Below are positions 25,376 through 40,805 of a stretch of DNA of 40,805 bases, piece after piece. Below the pieces are notes generated by a model that did not search any database, was not told the origin of the DNA, and saw only the letters and a list, made by a program, of their open reading frames with translations. This DNA comes from Polyangiaceae bacterium (lineage in GTDB: Bacteria > Myxococcota_A > Polyangia > Polyangiales > Polyangiaceae). The DNA lies in contig JADLAB010000085.1 in the NCBI GenBank assembly GCA_020848455.1, positions 1-40,805 of the forward strand, read 5' to 3'. Position 1 is the first letter of the stretch; each line of letters begins with the position of its first letter. Made by a program: the position numbers and the translations under genes.

Positions 25376-26350
25376 CTACACGAGCGGCCCCTGCGCGCCC
25401 CGCGACGACGACCTCGGCGGGCAGCCCGGGCGGGAGCTCGGCGAGGACCGGTGCCTTGCGCGCGGCAGCCATCGACCCGACGCTACCTCGGCGGTGGCGA
25501 GGCGCGAACCCCGATCGGCTGCCGCGCGCGCGGCCTCCGAGTCGGGCGGCCACCCGCCGCGCGCGCGCACCGCGGCGCGGGCGCGCAGCTGCAGGAGGAC
25601 GGCGTGGACGAGCCTCCGGTCGGGGGACGAGCGCGCGAGCTGGCGCAGGGTCCGCGGGTGGACGCCGAGCGCGGAGGCCAGGGTGGTCTGCGGGGCGGAG
25701 GCGCGCGGCGCGGGCCGGACCGAGAGGGCTGCTGCGACGGCGAGCGCGGCGCGGCGTGCGGCCACGACCGGCGCCGAAAGGCCCGCGAGGTCGGGCAGTC
25801 CGACGGCGCCGGCGGCGGCGTCGGGGAGGTCGTCCGGGTGGATGGCGCGCGGCTCGTCGAGATCGGGCACGCCGAGGAGCGCGAGGAGCTCGGTGCGGCC
25901 GACGCGCGGCAAGAGGCCGCGGACGTGCGCGGTGGCGTGCGCGCCGAGCAGGCGCATGCCGAGCAGATCGGGGAGGTTGCTCGCCTCGAAGAGCTCGTCG
26001 CCGCCGATGCCGTGATGCGCGTGCTGGCCGAGCACGTAGCGAAACGCGCTCGCGAGGTGCCACTGGTCGTGCACCGGGCGGAGACGTGCGCGCTCGAAGG
26101 GGGTCGGCAAGGCGAGGACGCGGCGGAGCGAGACGCCGAGACGGCGGCCGAGCTCCCGCGCCTCGGGCTCGGGGCAGGCGACCAGCAGGTGCACGTGGGT
26201 GTCGCTCGCGCGCGTGGCGAGGAGCGCGAACGGCTCCGCCACGCGGAGCACCGCCCGGGCGAACGCGCGGCGCGCCTCGACGGTGGGCGCGAGCACGCGA
26301 TCCTCGCGGAGCCTCATCACGATGTGCTGGCCGAGGGGGGCGGGTGGCAT
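25376..26350 (-). CDS. REP-associated tyrosine transposase-like (Y1/HUH) protein
   Basis: 324 residues. The N-terminal ~110 residues fit an IS200-like Y1 domain: HIVMRLREDRVLAP, then THVHLLVA with the HUH-type His52-x-His54 pair, a helix (GRRLGVSLRRVLAL), and FRYVLGQHAHHG with candidate catalytic Tyr105 where RAYTs have YIHINPV. The enzyme would nick and rejoin single-stranded DNA. The remaining part (LLPRVGRTELLALLG, GVHPRTLRQLAR) is helical and may bind DNA. The last ~45 residues are Arg/Ser/Pro-rich and less convincing. GAGG lies 5 nt upstream of the ATG. Three REP-like units start ~40 nt upstream. Overlaps of RAYT and REP are known in other bacteria. Confidence 0.75.
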   Translation of the reverse strand: MPPAPLGQHIVMRLREDRVLAPTVEARRAFARAVLRVAEPFALLATRASDTHVHLLVACPEPEARELGRRLGVSLRRVLALPTPFERARLRPVHDQWHLASAFRYVLGQHAHHGIGGDELFEASNLPDLLGMRLLGAHATAHVRGLLPRVGRTELLALLGVPDLDEPRAIHPDDLPDAAAGAVGLPDLAGLSAPVVAARRAALAVAAALSVRPAPRASAPQTTLASALGVHPRTLRQLARSSPDRRLVHAVLLQLRARAAVRARGGWPPDSEAARAAADRGSRLATAEVASGRWLPRARHRSSPSSRPGCPPRSSSRGAQGPLV

Positions 26351-26390
26351 GGGACCTCGTCGGGCGGGAATGGGTGGATCGTCGCGGCCT

Positions 26391-26648
26391 CGAACCGGCC
26401 GAAGCTCGGGGCAGACCGAAGGTTCGGGGAAGGTTCGGGGGCAGTTACGGCCTCGAACCGGCCGAAACTCGGGGCAGATCGAAGGCTCGGGGGCAGTTAC
26501 GGCCGGTTGGCTGCTCGCAAGGCCCGATGGATGCTCGCAAGTGGTGGACGACTGGTCGGGTGGGGGGCTTGGACGGCCGAGAAACGGACTTGAACCGGCC
26601 GAAACTCGGGGCAGATCGAAGGTTCGGGGGCAGTTACGGCCGGTTGGG
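26391..26648. repeat. Three REP-like elements upstream of the RAYT-like gene
   Basis: Units at 26393-26452, 26456-26508 and 26593-26645. The last two are 53 bp, almost identical, and bounded by AACCGGCC and GGCCGGTT, an exact inverted pair. Inside, GAAACTCGGGGCAG, then CGAAGGTTCG (itself palindromic), then GGGGCAGTTAC recur. The first unit carries an extra 11-nt duplication (GGTTCGGGGAA) and has lost part of its right arm. All three have the same orientation. Shape and location agree with REP/BIME elements mobilised by a neighbouring RAYT. Confidence 0.85.
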
Positions 26649-26661
26649 GGGATCGAGGCGG

Positions 26662-26678
26662 CAGACGCGGGGCGTCTG
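26662..26678. terminator. Short hairpin downstream of the kinase gene, possible terminator
   Basis: CAGACGC (26662-26668) and GCGTCTG (26672-26678) flank a GGG loop. It lies ~210 nt past the stop of the leftward kinase gene, before the REP units. There is no U-run in either direction, so termination is uncertain. Confidence 0.3.
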
Positions 26679-26724
26679 TCCATAGGTCGGCCGAACCGGC
26701 GCTCGAGTTGCGCTCGGGTTCGCT

Positions 26725-26827
26725 GTCCGGGGCGCGAGCGGAGCGGGCGGCGTCCGGGGCGCGAGCGGAGCGGGCGGCGTCCGGGGCGCGAGCGGAGCGG
26801 GCGGCGTCCGGGGCGCGAGCGGAGCGC
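26725..26827. repeat. 27-bp minisatellite, about 3.8 copies
   Basis: Perfect units at 26725-26751, 26752-26778 and 26779-26805, with a fourth, truncated copy to 26827. Each begins GTCCGGGGCGCGAGCGGAGC. There are no spacers. It lies between the REP-like units and the 3' end of the kinase gene. Rapid copy-number change by slippage would be expected. Confidence 0.9.
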
Positions 26828-26885
26828 GGGGGGTGCCGTGCGAGCCAGCGCGCGGGGCTCCGTGCGAGCAGCGCGCGAACGGCGC

Positions 26886-29800
26886 TCACTCCATGTCGAA
26901 GTTCATGTCGTTGTAGCTGCGGCTCTTCGAGTCGCGGTTGCGCCGGGCGTCGCGCTTCAGGAGGGCGATCTTCTCGAGCTCGCGCCACGCGTCGGCCCGC
27001 GCCGGGTCGCGTGCGCCGTCGGCCCGCGCCGGGTCGCGTGCGCCGTCGGCCCCTCGGGCACCCCCCGCGTCGAGGAGCGCGAGCGCCCGGCGCAGCTCGA
27101 CCTCGGCGCGGTCGACCCGGCCCCGGCGCTCGAGCAGGGCGCCCATCTCGCCGTGCGTGACCGCGAGATCGCGTCGCAGGCTGCCGTTGTCGGGGTCGGC
27201 GGCGGCGAGCTTCTCGCGCAGGGCGAGCGACCGGTCGAGCGCCACGATCGCCTCGTCGAGCCGGTTCATGTCGAGGTACACCGCGGCGAGCGTCGCCTCG
27301 CTCACGGCGAGATCGCGCTGCCAGCTCGTGTTGTCCGGATCGCGCAGCGCGAGCTCGCGCGCGATGGCGGCGTCCTTCTCGAGGCTCGCGAGCGCCGCCT
27401 GGTGCTCGCCGCCCGCCGCGAGCAGTCGACCCACGCGCGCATGGCTCACGGCGAGCTCGCGCTTCCACTCGACGTTGGCGGGGTCGCCCGCGCTCAGCCG
27501 CTCGCGGATGGCGAGCGCGCGCCGGTACTCGGCGAGCGCGCCCGCCCGGTCGCCCCGCGCCTCGGCGAGGCTGCCGAGGTTGTTGATGCTCACCGACAGA
27601 TCGTGCTGCCAGCCGGCGTTCGAGGGGTCCGCGGCGGCGAGGTGCTCGGTGATGGCGAGGTCCTTGCGGTAGAAGGCCTCGGCCTCGGCGAGCTCGCCGC
27701 GCTCGGCGAGGGTCTCGGCCAGGTGGTGGTAGGTCATCGACAGATCGTTCTGCCAGCCGGCGTTCGAGGCATCGAGCTTCGCGAGCCGCTCGCGGATCTC
27801 GAGCGCCTGCCGGTAGGCGCCGAGCGCGGGCTCGCTCGCGCCGCTCGCGGCGTGGGCCATGCCGATGCTCTCGTGGCTGGCGGCGAGGAAACGCTGCGCC
27901 GTGGCGTTGAGCGCGTCGCGCTCGACGAGCCGGCTCGCGACCGCGAGTGCCTTCGCGTAGGCGGCGAGCGCGTCCTCGCGCTTGCCCTGTGCCGCCAGCA
28001 GATCGCCCACGCTGTTGTAGCTGCCCGCCAGATCGTGCTGCACCTCGAGCAGCTCGCTCCCCGTCGCCGCGAGCCGCTCGAGCCGCTCGAGCGCGGCGCG
28101 GTGCGCGGCGAGCGCCTCGGAGCCCCGTCCCTCGTCCTCGAGCACGGCGGCGACGGTCTTGTGGCTCGAGGCGAGGTCGTGCTGCGCCTTCACGTCGTCG
28201 GGGCTCGCGGCCGCGAGCTCCACCCGCGCCGCCAGGCTCTGCTCGGCCAGGCCGAGCGCCTGGGCGAGCTGGTTCTGCTTGGCCGAGATGCGCGCCAGGG
28301 CGTCGAGCGCGCGGGCCCGCACCGTCACGAGCTCGCGGTCCGCGGGGCCCGCGGTGAGCACGGCCTCGACGGCGGCGCGCCCTTCCTCGTAGGAGCCGCG
28401 CGCCTCGTCGAGCTTGCCGCGCGGCTCGCGCGCCTTGCCGAGTCGGATGAGCGCGTCGGCGTAGCGCGCCGCGATCCCGGGCGCGCGCCGGTCGAGCGAG
28501 CGGTAGTAGTCGACGATGCGCTCGCTCACCGCGTCGAGCAGATCGAGCCGGCCCATGGGCTTCAGGCGCTGGTAGAGGTCGTCGGCGACGAAGGCCGCGA
28601 GCTTCTCGGCGCGCTCGCGCTCGGCGTCGGCCAGGGCGCGTGCGTCCCTCGCGGCGTCGCGCTCGCGCAGGGCGTCGGCGCGCTCGCGGCTCACGAGCAC
28701 GAAGCTCACCGCCACGAGCCCGACGACGGCGAGCACGCCCACCCCCGCGAGGCGCACCAGGCCCTTCTGGCGCGCGTGGAACAGGCGCAGGTACTCGAAG
28801 GCCGACGGCGGCCGGGCGCGGATCGGCCGGCGCTCGGCGCAGGCGCGCAGATCGTCGGCGAGCTCGGCCGCGCTCTGGTAGCGCTCCTCGGGGCGCCGCG
28901 CGAGGCACTTCTGGAGCACGATCTCGAGCTCGCGCGGCACGCGCCGCTCGAGCTCGCGCGCCGGTCGCGGCTCCTCGGCGAGCTTCTTCTGCAAGAGCTC
29001 GCTCACGTCGTCGGACGGGTAGATCGGCGCCTGCGTGGCGAGCTCGTAGAGCGTCGCGCCGAGGCTGTAGATGTCGGCGCGGTGGTCGACCTTGAGGAGC
29101 TTGGCCTGGAGCTGCTCGGGCGCGGCGTAGCGGGCCGAGCCCACGAAGTCGCCGCCGCCCGCGGCGGTGTAGGACACGGAGGCGTCGGTCGTCTTGGCCA
29201 GGCCGAGGTCCATCACGACCAGCCGCTCGCCGTCGGCGGTGAGCATGAGGTTCGCCGGCTTGAGGTCGCGGTGCACGAGCCCGCGCCGGTGCACCTCCTC
29301 GACGCCGTCGGCCGCGGCCGCGAACAGGAGCGCGAGCCGGTCGTACACGCTGCCCTGGTCGGCGAGCTCGGCCGGCAGCGGCGGGGCCGCGCGCGCGAGC
29401 TCGGACAGGGTGCGCGCCTCGACCGCGGCGCCCGGCGCGGGTGTCGCGTCCGGCTCGCGGTCGCCGCGCGCCCGCTCGTCGCTCGCGGGGTCGCGCTCGT
29501 CGCTCGCCGTCGCGCGCGCCGCCGCCCGGCCCGCCGCTCGTCCGGCCGCTCGGCGCCGCCGGCTCGAGGACGCGGCCTGCAGGTGGCCGGCCGTGAGCTC
29601 GCGCTCGCCCTTCCAGCGCACGAGCGTCGCGTACACCGCGGCGAGGTCGGCCCCCTCGACGAGCTCCATCGCGAACCACGGGCGCCCCTCCTCGATGCCG
29701 GAGGCGAGCACCCGCACGACGTTCGGGTGATCGCAGCGCCCGAGCGCCTGCACCTCGCGATGGAAGCGCCCGAGCGCGATCGGGTCCTCGAGCAGCGCGG

Positions 29801-40000: not shown

Positions 40001-40805
40001 ATGCGAATGAGGACGTGTCTGCGGGGTGCGCTGACGATTGCGGGGCTGTGTACCGCGGGGAGCGCGGTCGCCGCCGTGCCGGGCACCCTCACGCAGCAGG
40101 GGCGGCTGTACGATGCCAATGGCAGTCCCGTAACGGGACAAGTGAGCGTCGTGTTCGCGCTCTACGACGCCGTGGACGGACAGGCGCCCATCTGGAGCGA
40201 GACACACGCCATCACCTTCGACGAGGGCTACTTCTCGGTCGCCCTCGGCGGCGTCGTGCCGTTCGACGACACGACCTTCGACGGCTCGGTGCGTTACGTC
40301 GGCATCCAGGTCGGGGCGGATCCGGAGATGGTGCCTCGTGCGGCGGTGCACAGCGTTCCCTATGCGATTCTCTGCAACAACGCGACCGGGGACATCACCC
40401 CGAGCTCCGTCACCGTGGGTGGGACGCTCGTCATCGACGGCGCGGGCAACTGGGTGGGAGCTCCCGGCGGGCTCGTCGGGCCGACCGGGCCCACGGGCGC
40501 GACCGGGGACGCAGGCGCGACCGGCGTTGCAGGCGCGACGGGTGCCGGCGGGCCCACGGGCCCAGCGGGAGCCACGGGCGCGGCGGGGCCCGCGGGCGCC
40601 GATGGCGCGCCCGGGGCGGTGGGGGCGACGGGCGCCGCGGGGGCGACGGGCGCCGCGGGGGCGACGGGCGCCGCGGGGGCGACGGGCGCCGCGGGGGCGA
40701 CGGGCGCCGATGGCGCGACCGGGCCCGTGGGGCCGGCCGGCGCAACCGGGGCCCTGGGTGCCACCGGGACCGCGGGTGCGCCCGGCGGGATCGGTCCGAC
40801 TGGAG
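40001..40805 (+). CDS. Secreted collagen-like (Gly-X-Y) protein, N-terminal part
   Basis: 268 residues visible; the frame is open at the window edge. GGAG lies 6 nt upstream of the ATG. A signal peptide ([20 protein letters not shown]) is followed by a globular beta-rich domain of ~125 residues ([50 protein letters not shown]). This domain opens many surface proteins of myxobacteria and relatives. From ~residue 155 the chain is uninterrupted Gly-[18 protein letters not shown] and GATGAAGATGAAG. A bacterial collagen triple helix is expected. Several codons in the N-terminal part (AAT, AGT, GTA, GGA, CAA) are rarer than in neighbouring genes. Confidence 0.9.
40622..40711 (+). repeat. 18-nt in-frame tandem repeat in the collagen-like gene
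   Basis: Four perfect copies of GGGGCGACGGGCGCCGCG (40622-40639, 40640-40657, 40658-40675, 40676-40693) and a fifth differing in its last codon (GAT). Each encodes GATGAA, two Gly-X-Y triplets. Their identity at the DNA level suggests recent slippage. Confidence 0.92.

Follow-up and report, generated by a model that had tools for sequence, protein, structure and literature searches.

A probable REPtron-like pairing of a RAYT-like HUH endonuclease with helically phased palindromic units in Myxococcota

A gene for a divergent RAYT-like (TnpA-REP-like) Y1 HUH endonuclease and the palindromic units that lie beside it probably form a REPtron-like pair, so far seen only in Myxococcota, in which the protein would cut and bind its own units. 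Genes of this family are linked to arrays of palindromic units, most genes have a unit of their own, the units are dispersed in intergenic DNA, arrays are present or absent between congeners, and the units within an array are spaced in steps of 10.5 bp. Residue conservation and structure prediction support the catalytic residues and the fold, while cleavage, mobility and the binding of double-stranded units by a helix-turn-helix (HTH) domain are what we infer. RAYTs are credited with scattering small palindromic repeats over bacterial chromosomes; by what means and to what end they maintain and propagate REPs has long been an open question.

Gene and palindromic units in the window

The window, which is the whole stretch of 40,805 nt that was analysed, belongs, as contig C86, to a Myxococcota MAG of 9.2 Mb in 742 contigs. 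The RAYT-like HUH/Y1 gene is an ORF of 324 aa on the minus strand (25376..26350), with its start at 26350 and its end at 25376. The predicted Y1-like catalytic core comprises residues 1–113 (26012..26350, minus strand) and features a DTHVH motif with His52 and His54 as well as Tyr105 in the sequence YVLGQHAHHG. A C-terminal HTH-like domain, present family-wide, spans about residues 165–266 (25553..25858, minus strand). The tail from residue ~275 to residue 324 (25376..25526, minus strand) is read-through into host DNA and not family sequence, because the congener G001, which lacks the gene, has the same DNA with 92% identity. The first-pass annotation had described a long helical C-terminal extension; this extension is the family-wide HTH-like domain, followed by the read-through of the last ~50 residues.

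Three palindromic units are located upstream of the gene on the plus strand, and the gap between unit 1 and the ORF start measures 43 bp, in agreement with the distance of ~40 nt from a gene with an HxH pair and a candidate Tyr that was first described. Unit 2 (26456..26508) and unit 3 (26593..26645) are complete 53-mers that run from AACCGGCC to GGCCGGTT with a second hairpin nested inside, as had been noted for the units in general. Unit 1 (26393..26452) contains the 11-nt GAAGGTTCGGG twice, and its right end is cut, so that it abuts unit 2 directly. The internal duplication was already known from the first reading, which left it between decay and a founding variant; the truncated right arm favors decay. 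Unit 2 starts 63 bp (6 turns) past the start of unit 1, and unit 3 starts 137 bp (13 turns) past the start of unit 2. A spacer element, CAAGTG (26538..26543, plus strand), is positioned 55 bp before unit 3, and in other arrays of the window unit family this distance is 54–55 bp. DNA folding showed that the window units beat 200 of 200 dinucleotide shuffles, with a z of −3.6 for unit 3.

The gene, the units and a set of 27-bp repeats make up a cassette (25527..26854) that is present in the window and absent at the orthologous site of G001, where the flanks are about 92–96% identical. The 27-bp repeats (GTCCGGGGCGCGAGCGGAGCGGGCGGC) are four in tandem at 26725–26832, within the segment that G001 does not have. 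Two other repeats were observed in the window. A perfect 27-bp in-frame direct duplication is found at 26990–27043 near the 3' end of a protein kinase/TPR gene, and a 54-bp tandem repeat of ~2.9 copies, unrelated to the palindromic units, is found at 40574–40732 near the contig end.

Distribution and conserved residues of the protein family

The window genome encodes four paralogs counting the window gene, the other three being 43–60% identical to the window protein, and further relatives occur in other genera. Of the 377 Myxococcota genomes sampled, 32 have the family, often in multiple copies and some with at least six matches, with up to six candidates scored in each genome. A scan of GTDB genome contigs gave 17 family loci, all of them labelled Myxococcales, Myxococcota, Polyangiaceae or Deltaproteobacteria. 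The window protein has no match in Pfam, NCBIfam, PHROGs or PADLOC and, searched as a single protein, no sequence match in the PDB. The Pfam family PF01797 gave zero matches across the window genome, for the window protein and for the members of alignment A1; distal members score 11–14 bits against a cut-off of 23, which no member reaches. The absence of the window protein from Pfam, NCBIfam and PHROGs and the spread of the family through Myxococcota bear out the initial suggestion of a distinct myxobacterial lineage. This lineage, invisible to these databases and to PADLOC, has several independent gene-repeat pairs per genome.

Among 51 aligned family members, His52, His54 and Tyr105 are each kept in 50, and this near-invariance argues for catalysis. 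Residue 109 is Gln in 40 of the 51 and Asn in 10. The family features a Y---Q--HH signature (YVLRQEEHHG), in which some members have RH or KH for HH. One member, at locus L049 (G025:C483), has DTHLP instead of DTHLH and, judged by this substitution, is probably catalytically dead, yet it still stands beside a 63-bp tandem array.

Predicted fold and remote homology

The sequence link of the family to Y1 enzymes is marginal. A profile of 46 members (A3) aligns with the E. coli RAYT (4er8) over the full core, with the HUH pair, the Tyr and the K/HHG in register; the E of 0.06 is marginal. HHalign with a profile of 50 members against IS608 aligned 103 columns with a score of 25.3, versus a decoy maximum of 15.1, where the first IS608 row is the one confirmed as an independent result and later rows repeat values; HHalign with a shallow profile of 13 members was uninformative (probability 0.2%). 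The AF2 model obtained from the A3 alignment has a pLDDT of 94.8 and a pTM of 0.91, and its helices include 220–228 and 232–238. The best PDB match of this model is the complex of the E. coli RAYT and a REP hairpin (4er8), both by Foldseek (E 2.2e-3, prob 1.00) and by VIA-align (Z 9.6, 3.1 Å over 135 residues; the next match has a Z of 7.5). Nothing informative matched the model in a library of viral folds. By residue identity and predicted fold, the protein thus combines an HUH pair and a single Tyr on a Y1 ferredoxin-like core, and a Y1-like fold, on which the first-pass annotation had staked its reading, is what is predicted. In the C-terminal domain, individual members have weak HTH_23, HTH_17, Xre-like and MarR matches, and profile A3 gives HTH matches in the PDB.

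Ferredoxin folds of the Thg1 type score close behind 4er8 in the structure searches. Thg1-like proteins share the fold at similar scores but are not known to have HUH/Tyr, and a Thg1-like identity was set aside.

Linkage of genes and unit families

Palindromic repeated units number 61 in 101 kb near family genes versus 19 in 512 kb farther off. A strict palindrome detector found arrays at 16 of 43 family genes and at 0 of 202 control genes (p 5e-14), and Tandem Repeats Finder (TRF) found an array within 500 bp at 27 of 46 family genes and at 5 of 202 controls (p 6e-19), leaving ~40% of the family members with no array by the TRF detector. With 0/202 and 5/202 control genes, a chance coincidence of genes and arrays is rejected. 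The units are located on either side of the family genes and not just on the promoter side.

Most family genes have their own distinct unit (20 gene-unit pairs), and close relatives share partly similar units. Units tend to be more alike where the proteins are more alike, but the correlation is weak (Mantel r 0.24, p 0.02). Copy numbers go with the state of the gene. For unit B, G000 with its intact gene gives 46 matches, and G001, in which a C-terminal fragment is all that was found of the gene, gives 5; unit E peaks in G001, where its gene is intact (101 matches, with both strands of the palindrome counted). At L175 (G000:C13:3146-3720), a family-gene remnant consisting of the C-terminal 65 codons is followed by an intact unit-E array, a case in which the repeats outlive the gene.

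Across families the units are 45–53 bp long with nested hairpins, and the arrays are tandem and direct. Spacers are alike within an array and different between loci. Reading the units by eye did not reveal a GT[AG]G foot, and Rfam has no name for them. Upstream of the gene at L107 (G354:C4) there are near-perfect hairpins with stems of 19–21 bp, whose inner arms are conserved and whose outer arms vary; these are unlike the nested hairpins of other loci.

Dispersal and presence/absence between congeners

Sequence searches, from which the genome-wide unit counts are taken, located the window unit at 23 places in its genome, mostly in pairs, and found 9 diverged copies in the congener G001; it was absent from five other genomes searched. 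A count of 23 is low for a REP, and the assembly breaks at arrays. Further copies of the unit, which the original proposal called for, therefore exist, and unit copies are almost all intergenic as it anticipated: 126 of 128 dispersed copies lie outside predicted genes by a simple codon model at the examined loci, which are 67% coding. Arrays fall between convergent genes in 14 of 34 cases, versus 4 of 32 for large intergenic gaps generally.

In addition to the cassette, several further array sites are absent in G001. The missing segments are 320–910 bp, larger than the units, their ends differ between sites, and their flanks are mostly 88–98% identical. Each of these sites may reflect an insertion in one genome or a deletion in the other. 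A 430-bp segment around a single unit at L016 (1328–1757) is absent in the congener, and close to either end it has runs of short repeats of the TGACAACTGACAACTGAC type. A difference of the opposite kind was observed at 25396–25398 of the window, where a ~4.7-kb segment of G001 (L039, G001:C324, 2886–7633) is missing. This segment carries an ATPase gene and a gene that joins a Cas4-like nuclease to an SspH/FtsK-like ATPase (PADLOC SspH, E 3e-63), and it appears to be a defence-like cluster that was either lost in the window genome or gained in G001.

Helical phasing of the arrays

Neighbouring units are ~10.5n bp apart, start to start, over a range of 51 to 168 bp. The spacings are 63, 116, 137, 149 and 159 bp in the window family; 147–148, 158 and 168–169 bp for B; 64 bp for C; 62–64 and 72–75 bp for D/E; 62, 73, 83 and 94 bp for the G354 family; and 73 and 145 bp for the G099 family. 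In the discovery families, where each spacing class of a family contributed a single value (n = 17), R is 0.83 at 10.5 bp (Rayleigh p 7e-6). Among periods from 6 to 25 bp, 10.60 fits best, and 0 of 20,000 jittered sets reach this phasing. In other families, with period and phase preset, 18 values gave a V-test p of 2.6e-6 and a best period of 10.55. TRF arrays beside family genes are also phased (n = 28, V-test u 5.45), and the far tandem repeats at the same loci have no significant phase (n = 16, u 1.35); most TRF repeats sat beside family genes, so the control consists of the far repeats only. The p-values for phasing are guides and not exact, because the families share descent.

The spacer elements hold similar offsets. 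In the B arrays, an ACTTG element follows the same unit motif, in most cases by 64 bp (6 turns), and the distance from ACTTG to the next unit is 84, 94–95 or 105 bp (8, 9 or 10 turns). In the window family, CAAGTG stands 54–55 bp ahead of the next unit, also in the window array (26538 to 26593), and the other gap ranges between 62 and 104 bp. In a targeted literature search, none of the papers covered described helically phased REP arrays or a RAYT from myxobacteria, which is not proof of novelty.

Proposed mechanism and alternative explanations

Each gene is proposed to serve one unit family. The HUH/Tyr core would recognise the unit as a single-stranded hairpin, such as one on the lagging strand. 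It would cut and join this hairpin as RAYTs do and thereby spread both units and gene cassettes to intergenic sites. The phasing is expected of double-stranded sites that share one face of the helix and suggests a second, double-stranded role, in which the units are probably also bound as helically phased arrays. The C-terminal HTH-like domain may bind these units in double-stranded form, which would explain direct tandem arrays at whole helical turns; alternatively, another nucleoid protein may read the arrays. The fuller proposal, which we put forward tentatively, is that an HUH-HTH protein both cuts its palindromes as single-stranded hairpins and binds them double-stranded on the same face, iteron-like, and that the resulting nucleoprotein complex templates the arrays. 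If true, a double-stranded architecture would be built into this REP-type system, which would be general across Myxococcota. The phasing is a quantitative signature: adding 5 bp between units should break a phased function and adding 10–11 bp should spare it.

The helical phasing of both units and spacer element, the HTH-like domain, the direct orientation of units within arrays and the excess of arrays between convergent genes (14/34 vs 4/32) would also suit a regulatory or architectural role, with the arrays as operator- or nucleoid-type double-stranded sites of the HTH and the HUH core serving autoregulation or replication-linked nicking, like an iteron and its initiator. This is possible but doubtful, since the units are dispersed and present or absent between congeners, flank the gene on either side instead of the promoter only, and accompany a protein whose His and Tyr residues are near-invariant. 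The arrays could instead be passive tandem duplications of palindromes, produced by slippage or replication errors at hairpins, with the gene there by chance. Local duplication would give spacers that are similar within an array and different between loci, as observed, but the linkage to family genes (27/46 vs 5/202), the distinct units of most genes, the same spacing ladder in unrelated unit families and the lack of significant phase in far tandem repeats make this the least probable of the readings. A decaying insertion sequence of the IS200/IS605 type with MITE-like remnants is scarcely more probable. Its appeal lies in the Y---Q--HH signature, which resembles class 1 TnpA-Y1 proteins (PMC6006769), and in a cassette that is present or absent between congeners; against it, the paralogs differ by 40–60% in sequence and are not near-identical IS copies, the genes are flanked by arrays and not by single subterminal hairpins, the C-terminal domain is family-wide, and no identical multicopy insertions or conserved ends were seen here. 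A RAYT-like endonuclease paired with its own units remains the preferred reading.

Comparison with known systems

The pair resembles RAYT/TnpA-REP systems (E. coli, 4er8) and REPtrons in the Y1 fold with HUH and a single Tyr, in a gene beside its own palindromic repeats, in dispersed intergenic copies and in several unit families per genome. It is unlike them in that this family has Y---Q (or N) and not the Y---NP of class 2, escapes PF01797, and adds a C-terminal HTH-like domain that the E. coli RAYT (165 aa) does not have. Its units of 45–53 bp form direct, helically phased tandem arrays and not inverted REP/iREP pairs, whereas the BIMEs of E. coli-type systems join REPs in inverse orientation (PMC8266576). 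The IS200/IS605 TnpA proteins (IS608, ISDra2) share the fold and the Y---Q metal-ligand motif, and HHalign covers the core; unlike these elements, the loci described here have unit arrays and an added HTH-like domain, and no IS ends and no tnpB were seen.

Within TnpA-Y1 proteins, subclass 1.2 shares the Y---Q--HH signature and also has a conserved C-terminal domain. Subclass 1.2 occurs mostly in Cyanobacteria and Bacteroidetes, has no association with REPs and in general shows no hairpin structures at the ends (Quentin et al. 2018, PMC6006769), whereas the genes of this family have flanking palindromes. Class 3 is a rare REPtron-like group, reported mainly in Planctomycetes, Acidobacteria and Proteobacteria, that has atypical palindromes which can be multicopy; atypical palindromes are also reported for subclass 2.6 (PMC6006769). 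Class 3 features NHVH, Y----Q and a CnGA foot on the flanking structures; the motifs here are DTHxH and Y---Q. Judged by motif, the family fits none of the described TnpA-Y1 classes (PMC6006769) fully; by analogy, it would work like a RAYT/REP pair, and its surroundings are REPtron-like, similar to those of class 2 or 3. Two features go beyond what the first-pass annotation foresaw: the units, in direct tandem arrays and with no recognised foot, do not look like classical REPs, and the distances between them come in whole helical turns.
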